Source: Lysobacterales bacterium (lineage in GTDB: Bacteria > Pseudomonadota > Gammaproteobacteria > Xanthomonadales > SZUA-36). Taken from it: 64,000 bases of DNA. The stretch spans positions 124,001 to 188,000 of the forward strand of contig JABDLD010000075.1 of assembly GCA_013001885.1 (NCBI GenBank), written 5' to 3'. The position numbers and the translations under genes were made by a program. Positions within the stretch are counted from its first letter, which is position 1. Each line of letters begins with the position of its first letter. Below the pieces are notes generated by a model that saw only the letters and a program-made list of their open reading frames with translations, made no database searches and was not told where the DNA came from. Positions 501 through 11,722 of this stretch are shown in pieces.

Positions 501-1955
501 ATGTCGTGCATGCCGAATCAATCCCGCTCCATCAGCAACAAGGTTTCCTATCGCGACAGCCGCCGCGCTTCCGCCCGTATCCTCACGCCGGGGAAAAGGC
601 ATGCTTTGCGGCGTTTCGTTTCATTCGTGCTGGTTTCAGCCGTGACGCTCTATGTCTGGGTTACGCTGACCAGTTCGTTTCCACCCGAACAGCGCGCTGT
701 ATTGTTCCTTTTTTTGCTGGCGGTGGGCCTGTGGATTACCGAGGCGGTGCCCGCTTTCGCCGTGGGGCTGCTGATCATGGGTTACCTGGTTTTTGTTCTG
801 GGAACACCCATGCTGTTGAAGGAACCCGGGGACGTCAGTCCCTATCTGAACACCTGGTCGAGCCCGGTGATCTGGCTGATGCTGGGCGGGTTTTTCATGG
901 CGGAAGGCCTTTCCCGCACCGGCCTGGACCGAAAACTTTTCGCGCTGGCGATCAAGCCGGCAGGCAGCCGCCCCAGCCGTGTCCTGCTGGCGGTCATGTT
1001 GACCAGCGCCGTTGCTTCCATGTTCATCTCCAATACATCAACCACGGTGTTGATGATCGGAGCGGTATTGCCGCTGGTTCGCCAGGTTGGAAGAAAAGAA
1101 CCCTTTGCCAAAGCGCTGATGGTCGCCATTCCCCTGTCGGCCTCGGTCGGAGGCATGGGCACGATCATCGGCAGCGCGCCCAACGCGATCGCGGCGGGAG
1201 TGGCGTCCGGGTTCGGGCAAGGTATCGATTTTGTTGAGTGGATGATGCTCGGAGTGCCGGTTGCGCTGGTGTTGGTGTTCGCCGCCTGGTTCCTGCTGCT
1301 GCGCCTGTTTCCGCCCGGCATGGAAGAATTCAGCCTGGAACTTGGCCTGGCGGAGGAACCCGAGATGCCGGGGCTGCGGGAACGCTTGATGGTCGGGGCA
1401 ATTTCACTGCTCACCGTGGGCTTGTGGATGACTACGCCCCTGCACGGAATTCACGTTGCGGCCATTTCCCTGATCCCGATCGTCGGCCTCACCATGACCC
1501 AGGTGCTGGGTGCGGCGGATGTCAGGGGTTTACCCTGGGATACGTTGATGCTGGTGGCTGGCGGCCTTTCGCTGGGCGCTGCTGTAGTCGACACTGGCCT
1601 CGCAGCGCGGCTGGCCCTATCGCTGGAGTTCCTGACCATGCTGAATCTGGATGTGCTGGTGTTTGCGGCTCTGGCCCTGGTGACCGTTACCCTGTCGAAC
1701 TTCATGAGTAACACGGCGACCGTCTCGCTGATACTGCCGGTAGCCGTGGCCCTGGTTCCGGGCCGGGAACTGGAAATGTGCCTGATCCTGGGGCTCAGCG
1801 CCTCTTGTGCGTTGCTGCTGCCGGTATCGACCCCGCCGAACGCGGTCGCGTTCAGCACAGGAGAAATTCAGACGCGGGACTTGCGCCCCGGTGCCGTCCT
1901 GATCGGTCTGCTGGGCCCTGTTGTCGTGATTGCCTGGGTTTTGCTCGTGACCTAG
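501..1955 (+). CDS. SLC13/DASS-family sodium:anion symporter
   Basis: This 484-residue membrane protein matches the divalent anion:sodium symporter family. A non-membrane N-terminus of about 40 residues precedes roughly a dozen hydrophobic segments. Two pseudo-repeats can be seen: one with SNTSTTVLMIGAVLP followed by GSAPNAIAAG, the other with SNFMSNTATVSLILP followed by STPPNAVAFS. These SNT and PN motifs form the sodium and anion sites in the family. Substrates are usually C4-dicarboxylates, sulfate or phosphate. The adjacent pst genes make phosphate or sulfate a fair guess, but the sequence does not decide. ATG codons at 501 and 510 are both possible starts. The end overlaps the convergent pstB by 4 bases. 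Confidence 0.85.
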   Translation: MSCMPNQSRSISNKVSYRDSRRASARILTPGKRHALRRFVSFVLVSAVTLYVWVTLTSSFPPEQRAVLFLFLLAVGLWITEAVPAFAVGLLIMGYLVFVLGTPMLLKEPGDVSPYLNTWSSPVIWLMLGGFFMAEGLSRTGLDRKLFALAIKPAGSRPSRVLLAVMLTSAVASMFISNTSTTVLMIGAVLPLVRQVGRKEPFAKALMVAIPLSASVGGMGTIIGSAPNAIAAGVASGFGQGIDFVEWMMLGVPVALVLVFAAWFLLLRLFPPGMEEFSLELGLAEEPEMPGLRERLMVGAISLLTVGLWMTTPLHGIHVAAISLIPIVGLTMTQVLGAADVRGLPWDTLMLVAGGLSLGAAVVDTGLAARLALSLEFLTMLNLDVLVFAALALVTVTLSNFMSNTATVSLILPVAVALVPGRELEMCLILGLSASCALLLPVSTPPNAVAFSTGEIQTRDLRPGAVLIGLLGPVVVIAWVLLVT

Positions 1956-2731
1956 CCGTAACGGCCTTCGATATAGTCGGACGTTTCCTTGTGTTGCGGG
2001 GTCACGAACATCTGGCCGGTCTCGGTGTGCTCGACCACCTTGCCCATCAGCATGAAAATACATTCTTCACTGGCGCGCCGCGCCTGGGCCATGTTGTGGG
2101 TGACAATCAGAATGGTGTATTGGCCGCGAAGCTCCCAGATCAGCTCTTCCACCGCTTCGGTTCCCTTCGGATCGAGTGCGGAGCAGGGTTCGTCCATCAG
2201 AAGAACGCCGGGCTTGACCGGCAATAACCTCGCGATACAGAGCTTCTGCTGTTCTTCCAGCGAGAGGGCAGTGGCCTTCTTGTCCAGCTTGTCCTTGACC
2301 TTGTCCCAAAGCAAAACGGTTTTCAATGCGTCTTCAACGATGTCATCGTCTTCGCTTTTGGAGGTTTTTCTGCCCGCATTGTGAATGTGGTGTCCAAATA
2401 GGACGTTTTCCCGGATCGAAATGGGCAGCGGATTGGGCCGCTGGAACACCATGCCGATCTGCTTGCGCACCTGAATCAGCTCGACTTCCGGATCGTAGAT
2501 GTTTTCGCCCATGACGTCGATGGTGCCGGTGATGCGAACATACCCCAGCCTTTCATTGATGCGGTTAACACTGCGCAGAAACGTGCTTTTACCGCAACCT
2601 GACGGGCCGATCATCGAAGTGATGATGCCCTGTTTGATGTCGAGGTCGACATCAAACAAGGCCTGGAATGTACCGTACCAGAGGTTCAGTTTCTGCGTTC
2701 TGATGGCCATGTTGCCGGCTTGTTCCTGCAT
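1952..2731 (-). CDS. pstB: Phosphate ABC transporter ATPase, copy with degenerate signature motif
   Basis: The 259-residue protein is PstB-like over its full length and would energise phosphate import through PstA/PstC. The Walker A motif GPSGCGKST (42-50), Q-loop Gln97, Walker B LLMDEP with Glu181, D-loop SALDP and H-loop His202 (THNM) are all canonical. The ABC signature, normally LSGGQQQR, reads LSLEEQQK (156-163), so the Gly-Gly pair that contacts the partner's ATP is lost. It is the last gene of the pst operon, with its start codon overlapping the stop of the second pstB (TGATG). The neighbouring copy has the opposite defects, which suggests the two form a heterodimer. A sequencing error is unlikely because the frame is intact and the rest is conserved. 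Confidence 0.93.
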   Translation of the reverse strand: MQEQAGNMAIRTQKLNLWYGTFQALFDVDLDIKQGIITSMIGPSGCGKSTFLRSVNRINERLGYVRITGTIDVMGENIYDPEVELIQVRKQIGMVFQRPNPLPISIRENVLFGHHIHNAGRKTSKSEDDDIVEDALKTVLLWDKVKDKLDKKATALSLEEQQKLCIARLLPVKPGVLLMDEPCSALDPKGTEAVEELIWELRGQYTILIVTHNMAQARRASEECIFMLMGKVVEHTETGQMFVTPQHKETSDYIEGRYG

Positions 2732-3483
2732 CAGCCAAACCTCCCTTCGACATAATCCCGTGTGCGCTGGTCCTTTACTTCTCCGGTGAACAGGTCTTCG
2801 GTCATACCGACCTCAACACATTGACCTTCCAGGAAGAACGCGGTGCGGTCAGCCAGGCGACGCGCCTGTTGCACCAGGTTGGTCACCAGGATGATGGTGA
2901 CTTCCTTGCGCAGTTCTTTCAGCACGTCTTCAATGCGCATGGTGGTCACCGGATCGACGGCAATGGAAAATTCGTCCAGCATCAGCAGTTCCGGGTCCTG
3001 TGACAGCGCGCGTGCGATGGTCAGGCGCTGCTGCTGGCCGCCGGAGAGCAAGCTTCCGAGCGAATCCAGCCGATCTTTGACCTCGTCCCACAGGGCGGCG
3101 CGGGTCAGGCAGCGCTCAACGATGATGTCCAGCTCCGCCTTCTTCTTCTGACCGTTGAGCCGCGGTGACAGCGCCACGTTGTCATAGATGGACAGGGGCA
3201 AACCGACCGGCAGCGGAAAGACTACCCCGATCCGCCGGCGCAGGCCGTAGACATTACGAATTTTGCTGACGTCGACGTCGTTGAACACGATTTTCCCGTC
3301 GACGCGCATGTCCGGATCGAACATGTCCATCCGGTTGACCGCTTTTAGAAAAGAAGTCTTACCCGCATTCGCCGGCCCGATGATGCCGAAAATTTCGTGC
3401 TCCTGGATATCGAAACTGACGCCTTCCAGCGCGGTCGCGCCACCGTACCGAATCTGCAGGTCGCTTACGCTCAGCTTCACCAT
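2731..3483 (-). CDS. pstB: Phosphate ABC transporter ATPase, copy with intact signature but lost Q- and H-loops
   Basis: This 250-residue ATPase is a PstB paralogue sharing the C-terminal DYVEGRFG ending. Its ABC signature LSGGQQQRL (146-154) is perfect. The ATP-binding half is altered: Walker A is GPANAGKTS (36-44), the Q-loop Gln is Pro90 (VVFP), the H-loop His is Asn202 (VTNL), and the residue after the catalytic Glu171 is Phe instead of Pro. Family knowledge says Q- and H-loop residues couple and catalyse hydrolysis, so its own site should be weak or inactive, while it can donate a good signature motif to a partner. The start overlaps the end of pstA by 7 bases and its stop overlaps the next pstB start, implying translational coupling and equal amounts. 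Confidence 0.92.
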   Translation of the reverse strand: MVKLSVSDLQIRYGGATALEGVSFDIQEHEIFGIIGPANAGKTSFLKAVNRMDMFDPDMRVDGKIVFNDVDVSKIRNVYGLRRRIGVVFPLPVGLPLSIYDNVALSPRLNGQKKKAELDIIVERCLTRAALWDEVKDRLDSLGSLLSGGQQQRLTIARALSQDPELLMLDEFSIAVDPVTTMRIEDVLKELRKEVTIILVTNLVQQARRLADRTAFFLEGQCVEVGMTEDLFTGEVKDQRTRDYVEGRFG

Positions 3484-4346
3484 TTTTTCTTGCCCCGTAA
3501 ATACATGCGCAATGCGATGGACAGGCTGTTCATCAACAGCACCATCGAGATCAGCACCAGGGCGACACCGAACGGCAACTGCTCGGGCATATTGGGCACC
3601 TGGGTGGACACCACGAACAGGTGAAGCGATAGCGCCATCGTCTGGTCAAGGACCCCCTGAGGCAGCAGCGGCAGGAAAAACGCCGCGCCGGTAAACATGA
3701 TTGGGGCGGTCTCACCGGAGGTCCGGGAAACTTCGAGAATAACGCCCGTGAGAATGCCGGTGACGGCATTGGGCAGCACCACCCGGCGGATGGTCTGCCA
3801 GCGCGTCGCGCCCATGTTCCAGCAGGCCTCGCGGAACGCCATCGGCACGGCTTGCAACGATTCACGGGTCGCCACGATCACCACCGGCAAGGTCATGATG
3901 GCCAGGGTCAGGCTGGCGGCGAGAATGCTGGTGCCGAATTTGAAGAAGATGACAAAGGCGCCGACCCCAAACAGCGCGTGCACGATAGAAGGCACACCGG
4001 CCAGGTTGATAATGGCCAGGTTGATGGCGCGCGTGAACCAGTTGTCAGAGGCGTATTCACTCAGGTAAATGGCCGCAGCGATACCCAACGGCACCGAGGC
4101 GAGCAATGCAACCACGACCAGCAGGATGGTGCCAAGCAACGCGGGGAAAATACCCCCGGCCGTCATGCCCTTGGTGGGCCCGGTAAAAAGGAATTCGAAA
4201 GAGATAACCGGCGCGCCCTTGTAAATCAGCGTGCTCATGATCAGCACCACAGGCAGGATCAGTATCCCCGTCATGGTTCCCAGGCCAATCCGGAACAGCT
4301 TTTGCCGGGTTTCGTTCCTGCGGTTCAGTTCGGTTGATTCAAACAT
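3477..4346 (-). CDS. pstA: Phosphate ABC transporter permease PstA
   Basis: This 289-residue inner-membrane permease pairs with PstC to form the phosphate channel. Six membrane segments are apparent. The conserved cytoplasmic EAA loop (EACWNMGATRWQTIRRVVLP) docks the ATPase subunits. The N-terminus is hydrophilic for about 18 residues before the first helix. It lies 6 bases downstream of pstC and overlaps the first pstB gene by 7 bases. The length is normal for the family. Confidence 0.95.
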   Translation of the reverse strand: MFESTELNRRNETRQKLFRIGLGTMTGILILPVVLIMSTLIYKGAPVISFEFLFTGPTKGMTAGGIFPALLGTILLVVVALLASVPLGIAAAIYLSEYASDNWFTRAINLAIINLAGVPSIVHALFGVGAFVIFFKFGTSILAASLTLAIMTLPVVIVATRESLQAVPMAFREACWNMGATRWQTIRRVVLPNAVTGILTGVILEVSRTSGETAPIMFTGAAFFLPLLPQGVLDQTMALSLHLFVVSTQVPNMPEQLPFGVALVLISMVLLMNSLSIALRMYLRGKKKW

Positions 4347-4352
4347 GTCTCA

Positions 4353-5276
4353 TCACCCCTTGCGCACGCCGCGAACAACGAGGTCAGCGATCAGATTGAT
4401 TATGAAGGTCACTATGAACAGGAAAATTCCGATGGTAAACAGCGCCTGGTAGTGGGGCGAACCGGCCGCGGTTTCACCCAGTTCCGCGGCGATGGTCGCC
4501 GTCAGCGCGCGCACGGAGTCAAACACGCTGGTTGGAATATTGATCGAGTGGCCGGTAGCCATCAGAACCGCCATGGTCTCACCAAAGCCGCGGCCGACGC
4601 CCAGCAACACGGCGCCCAGCAAGCCGTTCTTCGCGGCCGGCAGCACCACCTTGTAAATGACCTGCCAGCGCGTGGCGCCCATGGCCTCAGCCGCCTCGCG
4701 GTAGCGGTCCGGAACGGCTTTCAGCGCATCCTCGGCAATGGATGTCATGATCGGTGCAGCCATCAGTCCCAGGATCACGCCGGCGTTCAATACATTGAGC
4801 CCGACCGGAACATTGAACGTTTGGATGATGATCGGATTCATGATTGCCAATCCGATGAAACCCCACACCACGGACGGGATAGCGGCCAGCAGTTCTACCG
4901 TTACTTTCAGGACTTCCCGGGTCTTGCCGCTGGAGAATTCGGCAATGAAAATGGCTGTACCGAGGGAAAACGGGATCGCAATCAGCATGGCCAGGCCGGT
5001 CACGCTCGCGGTGCCTGCAATCAAGGCCAGGATGCCGAAGGTTTCCTTGCTTTCAGAGGTGGGGCGCCAGTTCGGCGAAAAGAAGAACTCCCTGAAATTG
5101 AACTCACCGAACAGGAAGCCAAAGCCTTCCTTGGAGATGAAAACAAAGATTCCAACGATGAAAACGATGGCGGAAATACCGCCGATGAAGACCAGGATCT
5201 GCACCGCTTTGTCGATGTACCAGTCACGGTTCAGCTGGTCGAAGCTGGCCGGCGTGGTGGAAGAAGAATTCTCCAT
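4353..5276 (-). CDS. pstC: Phosphate ABC transporter permease PstC
   Basis: This is the second inner-membrane permease of the phosphate importer, 307 residues from the ATG at 5276. I chose this start (MENSSSTTPASF) over an upstream TTG at 5300 because the TTG lies inside phoU, while the ATG follows the phoU stop by only a few bases. The EAA loop EAAEAMGATRWQVIYKVVLP is present, as are the family motifs ETMAVLMATG and AGSPHYQALF. A periplasmic region follows the first membrane helix. It sits between the phoU fusion gene and pstA. Confidence 0.94.
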   Translation of the reverse strand: MENSSSTTPASFDQLNRDWYIDKAVQILVFIGGISAIVFIVGIFVFISKEGFGFLFGEFNFREFFFSPNWRPTSESKETFGILALIAGTASVTGLAMLIAIPFSLGTAIFIAEFSSGKTREVLKVTVELLAAIPSVVWGFIGLAIMNPIIIQTFNVPVGLNVLNAGVILGLMAAPIMTSIAEDALKAVPDRYREAAEAMGATRWQVIYKVVLPAAKNGLLGAVLLGVGRGFGETMAVLMATGHSINIPTSVFDSVRALTATIAAELGETAAGSPHYQALFTIGIFLFIVTFIINLIADLVVRGVRKG

Positions 5277-5280
5277 CAGC

Positions 5281-6342
5281 TCAGGCCTGTGTCGTCTCAA
5301 TGCCGGCCAGGAGGCCGAGTAAGCCGGATATCCTATCGCGCAGTTCGCGGTACTGGTCTGCGAGAGTCATTCCCTCGGGCAGGGTCCAGTCCAGGAAAGA
5401 GGTATGGAAAGGCACTTTCTGTACGTAACCGGACACCGGGCCGTTCACGCTGATCACGACGATATAGTCGGACAGATCGTGCTCCAGGGCCTCCAGGCGT
5501 TCGCTTTGCAGGTCCTCATCGGGCAGGCCCGTTTCGTTCAGAAACTCCATCAGCTGTGGTGAAGCGGCCTCCTGAACACCGGGTATGGCCGTGGAAAACT
5601 GGGCGGTCTCCTGGAAATTTTTTCGGCCAATCGCAGTGGCAAGCTGCGCCGTGCTGCAGCCGGGCTGGTCCAGAAACAGGATGCGATAGGTTTTCGGCAG
5701 CTTCTTCACGCCGTGGACAGCGAATACCGTCTGGTCGCAGATATTCTTTGCCTGGTCGCCTACACGCTTGAAAATATTGAAGACGGCGAAAATCACCATC
5801 ATCGTGGTCGCGTCCATCCGGTCGTCTTCGGCAAACAGCTCCTCGTAGAAACCGTCCATTCGGCCTTCCATTCGTTTCACCGCGTCCATCAGGGCGATGG
5901 CGCGTTCCGCGTTGCCCTCGCGGAAGGCAGAGCGGGCACCTGAGAGAATATCAATGGAATCGTCCGCCAGGCTGTCGATCCGGGCTGAAAACTTTTCGGG
6001 CAATGGCGCATCCAGCTGCAGGGATTCACGGCAGATCGTGACGGCATAGTCGCCAATGCGCTCCAGGATCACGTTGACGCGGATGGTCGACGCCATTTCC
6101 CTCAGAGCGCCGGCACCAGGCAGGTAACGGGCAATGAACGTATGGCAGAGCCGGTCGCACTGGCGGGAGTCGCGATTGATCGGGTGATCGCCAAGCACCA
6201 CCTCGTTGGCCAGCTTCTGGTCCCTGATAATCAGGGTGGTCTTGGCGCTGCGCAGCGCCGCCTCTACATCTTCTCCAATCTTCCAAAGCCAGTCACGGAC
6301 GTAGTTGAGATCCTTTTCCATGCGTTCTTCAAGATGACTCAT
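5281..6342 (-). CDS. phoU: PhoU-like regulator fused to an inactive LMW-phosphatase/ArsC-like domain
   Basis: The protein has 353 residues, against about 220-240 for ordinary PhoU. Residues 1-210 form the two PhoU three-helix bundles, with metal-cluster signatures near ERIGDYA (94-100) and KRVGDQAKN (192-200). Residues 217-325 resemble low-molecular-weight protein tyrosine phosphatase or thioredoxin-type arsenate reductase: a beta strand RILFL, a P-loop-like turn, an AQLATA helix, DYIVVI, and a final strand ending in DWTLPE. By eye alignment the catalytic P-loop Cys corresponds to Asp225 and the Arg to Thr231, so catalysis is unlikely. PhoU represses the Pho response through PhoR and the transporter. 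The extra domain may sense an oxyanion, which is inference. It has a strong ribosome site (GGGAGG) and lies between pstS and pstC. Confidence 0.85.
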   Translation of the reverse strand: MSHLEERMEKDLNYVRDWLWKIGEDVEAALRSAKTTLIIRDQKLANEVVLGDHPINRDSRQCDRLCHTFIARYLPGAGALREMASTIRVNVILERIGDYAVTICRESLQLDAPLPEKFSARIDSLADDSIDILSGARSAFREGNAERAIALMDAVKRMEGRMDGFYEELFAEDDRMDATTMMVIFAVFNIFKRVGDQAKNICDQTVFAVHGVKKLPKTYRILFLDQPGCSTAQLATAIGRKNFQETAQFSTAIPGVQEAASPQLMEFLNETGLPDEDLQSERLEALEHDLSDYIVVISVNGPVSGYVQKVPFHTSFLDWTLPEGMTLADQYRELRDRISGLLGLLAGIETTQA

Positions 6343-6430: not shown

Positions 6431-7312
6431 TCAGCCGCAGTTTGCCTCAGTAGCTGGAGCGTAACCCTTGTTCAGGATAATACACTGACCTTCGTCACTG
6501 AGAATCCAGTTCAGGTAATCGCCAACGAAGCCGGTGGGCTGGCCGTTGGTATACATGAACAGCGGGCGCGCGATGGGGTAACTGCCGTCCACGGCGGTTG
6601 ACACGGATGGATGGGTGCAGGCGCCGCCAATTTCCTGTGCGACACAGGGGAGTTTTACGTGCTCGGTTGCATACGCCAGTCCGCTGTAGCCGATGGCGCA
6701 AGGCGTGTTTTCGACCAGGTCTACAACGTCTTTGGAGCCGTGCATGTCACGGGTCCCCAGTTTGAAGTCGGCGTCACCCAGCACGGCTTCGCGGAAGTAG
6801 GCATAGGTACCGGAGTTGTTCTGGCGGCTGACGACGACGATTTCCTGGCCCTGGCAGCCCGGAACATCGACACCCAGGTCGCTCCAGTTCAGGTAGCTGC
6901 CGCCGTCACCATAAATTTCCGCCAGCTGTTCGGTGCTGATTTCATCCAGCGGGTTATCCGGGTGCAGGTAGATCGCAAGCGCGTCGAAACCGACCACGTG
7001 CTGAACGGGATCCTGGCCGTTGTCCCGGGCGAGCTTGAGCTCCTTTTCCTTGATGGCGCGGCTGGCATTGGCAATATCGACCGTGCCGTTGATCAGGGAC
7101 GCGATTCCGGTTCCGGAACCGCCACCGCTCACCGCTACGACGACGGCAGGGTTGACCACCTGGTACTCTTCAGCCCAGGCCTGGGCCACATTGACGAGTG
7201 TGTCGGAGCCCTTGTTCTGAATGACCTGGCGTTGTTCACCACCGCCGCAGGCAGCTAACAGTGCGGTGGCGAGCAGAGTGAAAACGATGAAAAGAATCGT
7301 GCGTGATGACAT
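6431..7312 (-). CDS. pstS: Phosphate-binding lipoprotein PstS
   Basis: The 293-residue protein is the phosphate receptor of the Pst importer. Residues 1-21 are a signal peptide ending in the lipobox LLAAC with Cys22, so it should be lipid-anchored rather than free in the periplasm. Phosphate-binding loops GSDT, SGGGSGTG (62-69) and RQNNSGTY are visible. It is the first gene of the operon and has a ribosome site GGAG before the ATG. A Pho box lies about 50 bases upstream of the start codon. It is followed by a strong hairpin before phoU. Lipid anchoring is less usual for PstS of Gram-negative bacteria. Confidence 0.95.
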   Translation of the reverse strand: MSSRTILFIVFTLLATALLAACGGGEQRQVIQNKGSDTLVNVAQAWAEEYQVVNPAVVVAVSGGGSGTGIASLINGTVDIANASRAIKEKELKLARDNGQDPVQHVVGFDALAIYLHPDNPLDEISTEQLAEIYGDGGSYLNWSDLGVDVPGCQGQEIVVVSRQNNSGTYAYFREAVLGDADFKLGTRDMHGSKDVVDLVENTPCAIGYSGLAYATEHVKLPCVAQEIGGACTHPSVSTAVDGSYPIARPLFMYTNGQPTGFVGDYLNWILSDEGQCIILNKGYAPATEANCG

Positions 7313-7363: not shown

Positions 7364-7381
7364 ATGACAATGATGTGACAG
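7364..7381 (-). promoter_or_regulatory. Pho box (PhoB-binding site) of the pst operon
   Basis: Read on the minus strand the site is CTGTCACATCATTGTCAT: two 7-base CTGTCA(C/T)-like repeats separated by 4 bases, matching the PhoB consensus except for one base in the second repeat. It lies about 50 bases upstream of pstS. A TAGCGT hexamer ten bases after the box could act as a weak -10, as is normal for PhoB-activated promoters. It implies phosphate-starvation induction of pstS-phoU-pstCABB. Confidence 0.8.
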
Positions 7382-7504: not shown

Positions 7505-9163
7505 TCAGGTCTGGGACAGCGCAATTCGCCGCGACAGAGTGAACACGCCTTTGAGTATTTCCATCACTTCCATCTCACGGGCATATGTTTTCAGCCGGTT
7601 GGGTTCATCGGCTGTCAGGCGGCTTAGGCCGTGCGCCAGGATTTCCCGCGACATCTGCGAAAAATCTTTTTTGCGGCGCTTCACCTGCTTAGCCAGGTCG
7701 GGATCTTTCGAAACGACTGCCTTCATGGCGTCATCAAGTGTGCTGACGACCTCGCTGTGATAGCTGATCAGCACTTCGGCCGTTTGCGGCGAAACGCTGA
7801 CGTCCTCGTCGATTCGCTTGCTCGCTGAAGTCACCATCGCGGTGGCTATCCGGTCGCCGATCTGTTCAAGGTTGTTAGCGACCTCGGTAAGCTCCATCAA
7901 TTCTTTTGACTGGCGTTCGGAAAGTTTTGCCAGGCTGATCTGACCCAGAAACCGGACGATCGCCAGGTGCCTCGCGTCGACGACCCGGTCCATCGCGGCG
8001 ATTTCCTGAAGTTCTGCCCGGGTTCCGGTGATAGCGGCCGGCATAATCTTGCGCACCATTTTCCTGACCCGTTTTCCGAGGCGGCGGATTTCCTGGCGCG
8101 CCGCTTCAAGCGCAACAGATGGCGTCGGTAACAGATCTTCATCGAGATATTTGGGCAACAGAATCTCTTCCGGTTTGATCGGCCGGTCGGGAATGATCCA
8201 TTCGACCAGCCGGGCAAGTTGAGTCGTGAACCCGATAAACAGAAATGCGTTGACGACGTTGAAGAACGTATGGACATTGGCAATCTGGCGTGGTGTGTCG
8301 GCCGCCAGTTGAGCTGCTCCCGTCAGGCCGGCAGCGCCGGGCGAGATCCATTGCGCAAACGCGGCGAGCTGGGGAATGAAGCCGATCCAGATGATGACGC
8401 CTGCGACGTTGAATACCGTGTGCACCAGCGCCGCGCGGACAGCTTCCCGTGGCTTTCCGATGGTGGCCAGGCCCGCCGTGACGCAGGTCCCGATATTGGC
8501 GCCCAGGGCGATGGCAATGGCGGACTCCAGGCCGATCAGGCCCTGTGAGGCCATAACGATCAGGATACCGGTCGTCGCGGAAGACGACTGCACGACAGCG
8601 GTAAACAGCGCGCCGACGGCCGCACCCAGCAGCGGATTCTGCATCGAGATCATGAACTGAACGAAAGGTTCGTAGGAACGCAAAGGGTTCAGCGCTGTGC
8701 TCATGATGCTCATTCCATAGAACACCAGGCCGAGCCCAAGGATGATCATACCAATCTGGCGCCAGTTGTCGCGCTTAGCGGTAAAAGAAACCAGGAAGCC
8801 CGCAGCGACCAGCGGCAGTGCGATCTTGGTCACTTTGAAGGCCAGGATTTGCGCAGTGATCGTAGTGCCGATGTTGGCGCCGATGATTACCGCCACGCTT
8901 TGGGACATGGACATCAGCCCGGCCGAGATGAAACCCACGAGAATCACCGTCGTGACGGATGACGACTGGATGATCGCGGTCACAAAGGCTCCGACACCGA
9001 CGCCTACGAAACGGTTTCGGGTCAGCTTTCCGAGGACATCCTTCATGTAATCCCCGGCCGCGGATTTCAGCGCCTGGGTCATCACGTCCATGCCGAACAG
9101 GAACAGGGCCAGGCCGCCAAACAAACCCGCCCACAACTCGAAACTCGCGAAAGGGCTACTCAT
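7505..9163 (-). CDS. Na/phosphate cotransporter family protein with C-terminal PhoU-like domain
   Basis: This 552-residue protein has two Na/Pi-cotransporter repeats. Each carries the QSSS signature, at Gln66 (IIQSSSVTT) and Gln192 (VVQSSSATT), inside about eight or nine membrane segments. Residues from about 340 onward form a helical cytoplasmic PhoU-like domain. The family imports phosphate with sodium, mostly as a low-affinity route; some members act in efflux. It is encoded beside the high-affinity Pst operon but is separated from pstS by 192 bases. Its ATG overlaps the stop region of the upstream uspA-type gene by 8 bases, so those two are coupled. Confidence 0.92.
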   Translation of the reverse strand: MSSPFASFELWAGLFGGLALFLFGMDVMTQALKSAAGDYMKDVLGKLTRNRFVGVGVGAFVTAIIQSSSVTTVILVGFISAGLMSMSQSVAVIIGANIGTTITAQILAFKVTKIALPLVAAGFLVSFTAKRDNWRQIGMIILGLGLVFYGMSIMSTALNPLRSYEPFVQFMISMQNPLLGAAVGALFTAVVQSSSATTGILIVMASQGLIGLESAIAIALGANIGTCVTAGLATIGKPREAVRAALVHTVFNVAGVIIWIGFIPQLAAFAQWISPGAAGLTGAAQLAADTPRQIANVHTFFNVVNAFLFIGFTTQLARLVEWIIPDRPIKPEEILLPKYLDEDLLPTPSVALEAARQEIRRLGKRVRKMVRKIMPAAITGTRAELQEIAAMDRVVDARHLAIVRFLGQISLAKLSERQSKELMELTEVANNLEQIGDRIATAMVTSASKRIDEDVSVSPQTAEVLISYHSEVVSTLDDAMKAVVSKDPDLAKQVKRRKKDFSQMSREILAHGLSRLTADEPNRLKTYAREMEVMEILKGVFTLSRRIALSQT

Positions 9164-9913: not shown

Positions 9914-11722
9914 ATGACTTCCGAGCAGGTACAGATACTTCTCATTCTTGCCGCCACCATTGGTCTTTTTCTCTGGGGCCGCTGGCGGCACGACATCGTG
10001 GCGCTAGGTTGCCTGCTGGCGGCCGTCTTCACCGGAATCGTGCCGTCAAACCAGGCGTTTTCGGGTTTTGGTCATCCGGCCGTGATCACGGTGGGCTGCG
10101 TGCTCATCCTCAGCTGGGGTCTGCAGTCCACCGGGGCGGTTGACCTGCTGGCCCGGCGGCTGCTGCCGGCGTCATCCGGCCCGACTATGACGATCGCAGC
10201 GATCACCGGGCTGGGCGCTGTCCTCTCGGCTTTCATGAACAACGTCGGTGCGCTGGCGTTGCTGATGCCACTCGCGCTCCAGCTGTCCAACCGGCTGGAG
10301 CTGCCTCCCGGCAAGGTGCTGATGCCGTTGTCCTTCGGCACGATACTCGGTGGTATGACGACGCTTATCGGGACCCCGCCCAACCTGATCGTCTCCGGGT
10401 TCAGGGCCAAAAACGGCCTGGACAGCTTCGGCATGTTTGACTTTACGCCGGTGGGTCTCGCGGTTGCAGTGGTCGGCGTGCTGTTCGCCGCGCTGGCCGG
10501 CTGGCGGATTGTGCCGGCCCGTGAGCAAAAGGGCGCGGACAGTTTTGACACGGGGGCCTACCTGGTCGAGGCCAGGATCATGGACAAGGCCAAGGCGGCG
10601 GGAAAAACCATAAAAGAGGTTGAGGCTGTCCTCGAAAAATCGGACGCCCAGGTCACCGGAATGATCCGTAATGAATTTCGGGTTTCGGCGCCAAATCCAC
10701 GGCGGATTTTACGGCCCGGCGACATTTTGATTATCGAAGCGGACCCTGAGTCCCTGTCCGGTGCGCTCTCCAGCCTGGGGCTGGTTCTTGAGGATCACGC
10801 GAGTCTTGAGGCCGAAGAAGAACCCGACAGCGGCGAGGAGCCGAAAGAGAGAGAAAGCGGAGCCAGCGAGACTGTTTTACAGGAACTGGTGGTTATGCCG
10901 AACTCCCGGTTGATTGGCCGGTCCGTTAATGACGTCCACATGCGGACCCGTTACGGCCTGAATCTGCTGGCGATATCGCGTACCGGAAAGCGCACGGTCA
11001 AACGCCTGCGCTCCACGGTCATCAAGGCGGGTGACCTGCTGCTGCTGCAGGGGAATCCCGGCGCGCTGGCCGGGTTTGCGACGAGCTTTGCCTGTGTTCC
11101 GCTGGCGAAAAGAGACATTTCCCTGCCCGACACGCGCAAGACGCTGATGGCCCTGACCGTTATGGCGTTCGCCATTGGCGGCGCGGCTTTCGGCCTGTTG
11201 CCCGCGGCGATTTCTTTCGCTACCGGCGTGCTGGCCCTGATGGTGCTGAAGATCGTGCCGCTAAGAAAACTTTACGACGCCGTGGACTGGCCGGTCATTG
11301 TCTTGCTGGGCGCACTGATACCGGTAGCGGTGGCGATGGAGACTACCGGGGCGGCAGACCTGTTGGCGCGCTCCTTGCTGGAGACGATTGCACGCGGCAG
11401 CCCGGTGATCGCGTTGACGCTGATCCTGGTCGTCACCATGACGCTTTCCGACCTGATGAACAATGCCGCGACCGCGGCGGTGATGGCGCCGATCTCTATC
11501 AGCACGGCGGCGCAGCTGAATTCCAGCCCCGACACGTTCCTGATGGCCGTGGCAATCGGCGCTTCCTGCGCTTTTCTGACCCCGATCGGGCACCAGAACA
11601 ACACGCTGATCCTCGGCCCCGGAGGCTTCCGTTTTGGCGATTATTGGCGGCTCGGCTTACCGATGGAAATCCTGGTCGTGGCGATCAGCGTGCCCATGTT
11701 GCTGATCGTCTGGCCGTTGTGA
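9914..11722 (+). CDS. SLC13-type transporter with two central TrkA-C (RCK_C) domains
   Basis: The protein has 602 residues and the layout membrane half, two TrkA-C domains, membrane half. The first half carries FMNNVGALALLMPLAL and GTPPNLIVSG. The hydrophilic middle (about 210-410) contains two RCK_C-like units, each ending in RPGDILIIE or KAGDLLLLQG. The second half carries SDLMNNAATAAVMAPI. Such proteins transport sulfate or other anions, and the RCK domains are thought to gate them with a small ligand. The substrate is unknown. An acidic linker (EAEEEPDSGEEPKERE) separates the two RCK units. It is transcribed divergently from the uspA-type gene and converges on the cytochrome-rhodanese gene, 15 bases away. 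Confidence 0.9.
   Translation: MTSEQVQILLILAATIGLFLWGRWRHDIVALGCLLAAVFTGIVPSNQAFSGFGHPAVITVGCVLILSWGLQSTGAVDLLARRLLPASSGPTMTIAAITGLGAVLSAFMNNVGALALLMPLALQLSNRLELPPGKVLMPLSFGTILGGMTTLIGTPPNLIVSGFRAKNGLDSFGMFDFTPVGLAVAVVGVLFAALAGWRIVPAREQKGADSFDTGAYLVEARIMDKAKAAGKTIKEVEAVLEKSDAQVTGMIRNEFRVSAPNPRRILRPGDILIIEADPESLSGALSSLGLVLEDHASLEAEEEPDSGEEPKERESGASETVLQELVVMPNSRLIGRSVNDVHMRTRYGLNLLAISRTGKRTVKRLRSTVIKAGDLLLLQGNPGALAGFATSFACVPLAKRDISLPDTRKTLMALTVMAFAIGGAAFGLLPAAISFATGVLALMVLKIVPLRKLYDAVDWPVIVLLGALIPVAVAMETTGAADLLARSLLETIARGSPVIALTLILVVTMTLSDLMNNAATAAVMAPISISTAAQLNSSPDTFLMAVAIGASCAFLTPIGHQNNTLILGPGGFRFGDYWRLGLPMEILVVAISVPMLLIVWPL

Follow-up and report, generated by a model that had tools for sequence, protein, structure and literature searches.

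A PhoU-family regulator fused to a catalytically dead ArsC-like domain and associated with an asymmetric Pst phosphate importer

The fusion gene and its operon

The window analysed here is a 64,000-nucleotide stretch of a Lysobacterales bacterium genome (GCA_013001885.1, contig JABDLD010000075.1, positions 124,001 to 188,000), and the gene under study, which we call phoU*, lies within a phosphate-transport operon of this window, between pstS and pstC as the original prediction placed it (Table 1). Its product is PhoU fused to a complete domain of the fold shared by ArsC arsenate reductases and LMW-PTP (low-molecular-weight protein tyrosine phosphatases), from which the catalytic Cys is missing. 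This fusion, first proposed from the nucleotide sequence, is borne out by profile searches, AlphaFold and Foldseek. The PhoU half (residues 7-211) comprises both PhoU repeats, each a three-helix bundle, and matches NCBIfam TIGR02135 (4.3e-29, 101.6 bits) and, over its cutoff, Pfam PhoU (4.8e-20); because the NCBIfam score falls short of the equivalog cutoff (101.6 vs 130.25 bits), the protein is best filed as a PhoU-family member and not as canonical PhoU. The ExxxD motif of the first repeat (residues 94-98) is invariant in 22 of 22 members, while in the second repeat Lys192 (21 of 22, Arg in the other) precedes the invariant Asp196. The label of Pho-response regulator originally given to the protein does not hold, since PhoU acts on the Pho response as an accessory regulator and is no response regulator.

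The operon is ordered pstS-phoU*-pstC-pstA-pstB1-pstB2, an arrangement found in 39 of the 41 testable loci (49 fusions minus 8 loci cut by contig ends or not fetched, counted from the locus tables), and the pstC ATG lies 4 nucleotides past the phoU* stop codon. A Pho box is present in the window operon and in most gammaproteobacterial loci. The two ATPases, noticed at the outset as an unusual pair, are confirmed to be asymmetric and tightly associated with the fusion. PstB1 reads VTN at the position of the H-loop His, PstB2 carries LSLEE or a similar sequence at its signature, and the same complementary losses recur in the loci examined. Read by the standard logic of ATP-binding cassette (ABC) proteins, these complementary motif losses would leave the pair with a single consensus ATP site, the other being degenerate.

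Table 1. Positions of phoU*, its parts and neighbouring features in the window
Feature	Coordinates	Strand	Basis and remarks
phoU* (PhoU + catalytically dead ArsC/LMW-PTP domain), 353 residues	5281..6342	-	Open reading frame, profile searches, AlphaFold, Foldseek
PhoU part, residues 7-211, two PhoU repeats	5710..6324	-	TIGR02135, AlphaFold, family alignment
Pseudo-ArsC (LMW-PTP fold) domain, residues 217-346	5305..5694	-	Family profile, Pfam LMWPc, AlphaFold, Foldseek
Former catalytic P-loop DQPGCST, residues 225-231 (Asp225 for Cys, Thr231 for Arg)	5650..5670	-	Family alignment
PFHTS, family-specific motif, residues 311-315	5398..5412	-	Conservation across 49 fusions
Pho box CTGTCACATCATTGTCAT	7364..7381	-	69 nucleotides upstream of pstS start; sole site scoring at least 13/14 in the 64-kb window
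pstS, phosphate-binding protein	6431..7312	-	TIGR02136 2.2e-68
pstC, permease	4353..5276	-	TIGR02138 7.5e-85; ATG at 5276, longest open reading frame starts at TTG 5300
pstA, permease	3477..4346	-	TIGR00974 4.8e-76
pstB1; LSGGQ signature intact, H-loop His to Asn, Q-loop Gln to Pro	2731..3483	-	Profile match, motif reading
pstB2; Walker A/B, Q-loop and H-loop intact, ABC signature degenerate (LSLEE)	1952..2731	-	Profile match, motif reading
NptA-type Na/Pi (inorganic phosphate) cotransporter with C-terminal PhoU domain	7505..9163		
Membrane transporter gene, SLC13/ArsB-like	501..1955		By eye
Membrane transporter gene, SLC13/ArsB-like	9914..11722		By eye

Fold and former active site of the C-terminal domain

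Searched as a single sequence, the C-terminal part gave no match to Pfam LMWPc and no sequence match in the PDB, and its ancestry was decided by a family profile together with fold searches, using homologues collected through genome searches. A profile built from 21 family members matches the PDB ArsC entries of Synechocystis, Bacillus and Corynebacterium (E values 1.3e-7 to 3e-5), and 7 of the 21 members match LMWPc directly (best 1.1e-7), the window's own domain not being one of them. AlphaFold models both the whole protein (predicted local distance difference test, pLDDT, 88) and the isolated domain (pLDDT 89, predicted template modelling score 0.85) with confidence. In Foldseek the N-terminal part of the full model retrieves PhoU structures (4q25, with a TM score of 0.93 by target, and 1t8b) and the C-terminal part retrieves arsenate reductases, while for the isolated domain the top 21 matches in the PDB are all arsenate reductases. 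The predicted fold has the characteristic alpha/beta topology of LMW-PTP/ArsC and is thus that of ArsC, not an unrelated one. The confident models, the Foldseek matches, the family profile and the direct LMWPc matches together make homology of the domain to the ArsC/LMW-PTP family secure, while the window sequence alone is too diverged to reveal it. Of the span first proposed for the domain (residues 217-325) the start stands, and the end moves outward to residue 346.

The register of the former P-loop is set by distant fusions, which carry FVDEDNSCLSQMAEA at the position of ArsC's FLCTGNSCRSQMAEG, and it places Asp225 at the nucleophilic Cys and Thr231 at the Arg, in agreement with the original reading. 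Across 49 distinct fusion proteins the Cys position is occupied by Asp in 46 and by Glu, Gly and His in one each, and by Cys in none; at the Arg position Leu is found in 32, Lys in 2 and Arg in 1, with other residues in the remainder. In the comparison set, 14 LMW-PTP-family relatives lacking PhoU, both Cys and Arg are present in every member. No Cys-x5-Arg is conserved in an alternative register anywhere among the 49 fusions (chance matches occur at unrelated places in 5), and the redox-relay cysteines of ArsC are likewise not conserved (zero Cys in 15 of the 49 domains, a single Cys in 24). The DP loop, which bears the general-acid Asp, is variable in length and reads Pro-Glu-Gly in the window where active relatives read Asp-Pro, and it differs between relatives. 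The proposal of lost catalysis within an intact fold is upheld, the catalytic P-loop residues being gone and the fold complete. Since Cys is gone from every fusion whereas one retains Arg, loss of Cys probably preceded loss of Arg. The sole fusion with the P-loop Arg (DRENSVR) is L089:7076-8236, the same gene as in L060, and the clade of the window protein has a further altered loop, DQPGxx. An LMW-PTP-family open reading frame with a Cys-x5-Arg loop was also observed a few kilobases from one fusion operon (L104:11346-11870).

These substitutions bear directly on what the old pocket could still do. The domain might be an oxyanion sensor, binding phosphate or arsenate in the former P-loop without turnover and passing the cytoplasmic level of inorganic phosphate to PhoU. 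The ancestral fold binds both anions, P-loop remnants (Asn-Ser, Ser-Gln-Met-Ala) survive in distant fusions, and the partner in the fusion is a phosphate regulator whose pst operon has a Pho box; however, the nucleophile has become an acid in 47 of the 49 fusions, 48 no longer have the oxyanion-holding Arg (Lys in two of them), and in the window's clade the loop is altered still further. With the anion-holding groups gone, the old pocket is less likely to bind phosphate or arsenate directly, and we regard an oxyanion sensor as an unlikely explanation. A binding or sensing domain, as the original prediction had it, remains sensible as to binding or regulation, while phosphate or arsenate as the ligand finds no support, given an acid nearly always in place of Cys, mostly Leu in place of Arg, and no arsenic genes recognised among the annotated neighbours.

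Alternatively, Asp225 could itself be a phospho-acceptor that receives its phosphoryl group from a partner kinase or a small phosphodonor, the domain then reporting this to PhoU. The residue is nearly invariant (one Glu beside the 46 Asp) and is not drifting, it follows the first strand of an alpha/beta fold, and a Phe-His motif is conserved along with it. Against this, no conserved acidic metal site of the kind found in receiver or HAD proteins is evident, a mimic of the thiolate would equally show Asp for Cys, and no precedent within the LMW-PTP family is known to us, so that a phospho-acceptor role appears very improbable. The Phe-His pair belongs to the PFHTS motif (Phe in 48 of 49 fusions, His in 47), and because it is conserved in the fusions but not among catalytic relatives, it suggests a surface that has been repurposed and is not decaying. 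Asp225 and His313, which are among the most family-specific of the conserved residues, could conceivably sustain a non-canonical activity such as hydrolysis, yet we know of no precedent for this in the LMW-PTP/ArsC fold either and find the idea barely credible.

Origin, selection and linkage to the importer

The 49 fusions come from several gammaproteobacterial families and from a second proteobacterial class (22 of 48 genomes) in a survey confined to Pseudomonadota; the named relatives are gammaproteobacterial metagenome-assembled genomes labelled Chromatiales, Lysobacterales and Xanthomonadales. All fusions fall into one clade (support 100/100) in a tree of 63 domains; judged from the sequences, the fusion arose once and a single catalytically dead ancestor accounts for all known copies. 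Pairwise ratios of nonsynonymous to synonymous substitution (dN/dS) are 0.06-0.15 for the domain, where dS is estimable, and 0.04-0.09 for the PhoU half, values that are rough with dS near saturation though far below 1, and the domain is evidently under purifying selection. Of the two halves it is nevertheless the domain that diverges faster (71% identity against 90% for PhoU in one example). Horizontal spread via plasmids or phages was considered and dropped, as none of the plasmid records reached 80% coverage of a full-length query and a search for viral contigs yielded nothing.

The faster change of the domain, and the existence of asymmetric operons without any phoU, are what might be expected of an inert relic or of a spacer for folding or dimerisation within an operon conserved by descent. 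An inert domain is difficult to reconcile with retention from a single origin across two classes, with dN/dS well below 1 and with a complete fold, nor would it account for the gain of new invariant residues or the lack of a PhoU-only version in any asymmetric operon, and we judge it distinctly unlikely.

Among 399 Pseudomonadota genomes the fusion occurs in 23, the special PstB1 in 24 and both in 22 (Fisher p 8e-33, a value inflated by relatedness of the genomes). In the one genome with the fusion only (G646) the locus is cut by a contig end, while the two with PstB1 only (G633 and G715) have an asymmetric pst operon with no phoU in it. There are two such operons in G633 (L140, L141) and one in G715 (L142), none with phoU between pstS and pstC. 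Because of these phoU-less operons the importer is not strictly in need of the fusion, and strict dependence of the asymmetric transporter on it is ruled out. Eighteen genomes that belong to the same family or order but are without the fusion have no PstB1 ortholog and contain ordinary PstB only (43-47% identity or below threshold). Among the sampled genomes, no PhoU-only version was found in any asymmetric operon, and whenever the operon of the asymmetric transporter carried a PhoU, that was the fused form.

The host genome encodes PhoR and carries, on contig 65 (L056), a canonical pstS-pstC-pstA-pstB-phoU operon with an ordinary PhoU, in which a simple scan found no recognisable Pho box. Because a canonical Pst operon without a recognisable Pho box thus exists elsewhere, in contrast to the fused operon with one, the latter is probably a second, starvation-induced Pst system. 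Three genuine LMW-PTP-family genes, one of them ArsC-like, are all on other contigs, and no ars genes were recognised near the operon in the annotated part of the neighbourhood, on which grounds the reading of the locus as an arsenic island was rejected, although pst operons do occur within such islands (PMC3834237). The NptA-type cotransporter lies directly upstream of the pst operon, making two PhoU-type regulators neighbours in the window, and the phosphate cluster is flanked by membrane transporter genes, an arrangement also seen in L004 and, in part, in L007 and L052.

Proposed role and comparison with known systems

The PhoU of E. coli binds both PstB and PhoR, whose signalling is determined by the conformations of PstB, including that of a signature-motif mutant (PMC5775613). 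More generally, each PhoU-like clade pairs with one transporter type (PMC13170248). For phoU* a binding or regulatory role is sensible because the fusion is real, the domain has the LMW-PTP/ArsC fold, its P-loop has lost both catalytic residues and selection maintains it. We therefore favour, with a probability of roughly 0.55, a reading in which phoU* is a non-catalytic accessory regulator with a partner-binding domain, dedicated to the asymmetric, starvation-inducible Pst importer.

As such a dedicated accessory regulator, phoU* would serve a second Pst importer inducible by phosphate starvation. The PhoU half, like others of its family, would dock on the Pst ATPases and relay their state to PhoR, to the transporter or to both. 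The C-terminal half would descend from an ArsC-type LMW-PTP whose nucleophilic Cys became Asp, with arsenate reduction and phosphate removal presumably lost, and would most likely act as a protein-binding module for the PstB1/PstB2 pair or for the cytoplasmic face of PstC/PstA, where the bound domain may report or gate the conformational state of the importer. PRL phosphatases offer a possible model, being pseudophosphatases on CNNM transporters in which a Cys-to-Asp change abolishes catalysis and keeps binding (PMC12192612), the latter because Asp is of the thiolate's size and charge. At the base of the old phoU* pocket, Asp may preserve both in the same way as in these engineered PRL variants. 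Putative binding of a partner at the PstB1/PstB2 pair, of the PRL/CNNM kind, fits best.

Several points weigh against the favoured reading. PRL holds CNNM by the P-loop Arg, which most fusions lack, and the PhoU half itself scores below the equivalog cutoff. The co-occurrence of the fusion with PstB1 is owed partly to shared descent, and G633 and G715 have the asymmetric operon and no phoU in it. For one fusion (L143) no pstB was found nearby, and another (L148:8067-10712) adjoins a divergent PstC/PstB pair whose PstB is without H-loop and signature, possibly a signalling-only remnant. A RelA/SpoT-like and a Pit-type transporter open reading frame, both recognised by eye, lie in the vicinity of the L148 fusion.

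A more specific form of the favoured reading would make the dead ArsC domain a pseudophosphatase switch that binds PstB1/PstB2 through its Asp-bearing former active site and senses in which half of its ATP cycle the pump stands, the asymmetry and the pseudoenzyme having co-evolved into a distinct PhoU/Pst subtype. This version is tentative and on balance doubtful. Of more interest than the protein by itself is the broader result that one ancient PhoU with a pseudo-ArsC domain goes with an asymmetric Pst importer. It bears on the way in which PhoU senses the Pst transporter and governs PhoR, offering a separable, mutable piece (residues 215-353, Asp225, His313) together with a pump whose ATP sites would be non-equivalent, which could make it possible to assign contact sites and signalling states. 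Should the favoured reading hold, phoU* would exemplify in bacteria the linking of a pseudophosphatase domain with a membrane transporter. No description of the fusion or of the asymmetric Pst pair was found in the literature searched, a body with most subscription journals outside its scope.

Compared with canonical PhoU (TIGR02135; Pseudomonas aeruginosa 4q25, Aquifex 1t8b), phoU* shares the two repeats, the first ExxxD, the fold and a gene within a pst operon, but it adds a 140-residue C-terminal domain, has Lys (Arg in 1 of 22) before the invariant Asp of the second repeat, and has its gene placed between pstS and pstC instead of following pstB. With ArsC/LMW-PTP (pI258 ArsC 2cd7 and 1jf8, Synechocystis ArsC 2l19, Pfam LMWPc) it has in common the complete fold and a sequence alignable over the whole domain, and it differs in the change of Cys to Asp, in an Arg position that is mostly Leu (Thr in the window), in having no conserved redox-relay Cys, and in the fusion to PhoU. 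The PhoU-NptA Na/Pi cotransporter fusion (PMC13170248) similarly joins PhoU to another module tied to one transporter, although there PhoU is carried on the transporter itself and here on a pseudoenzyme. The proposed likeness to PRL (PTP4A)/CNNM (PMC12192612) is that of a phosphatase fold acting on a transporter without catalysis, with Cys-to-Asp tolerated for binding; PRL is eukaryotic, belongs to a different PTP class and has both Cys and Arg in the wild type, making this an analogy and not functional homology. The two pstB genes of Enterococcus PstB1/PstB2 (PMC12096839) likewise adjoin one another within a single pst locus, whereas the window pair is complementary and degenerate. In this complementary loss of motifs the PstB pair of the window matches heterodimeric ABC importers with one degenerate site.
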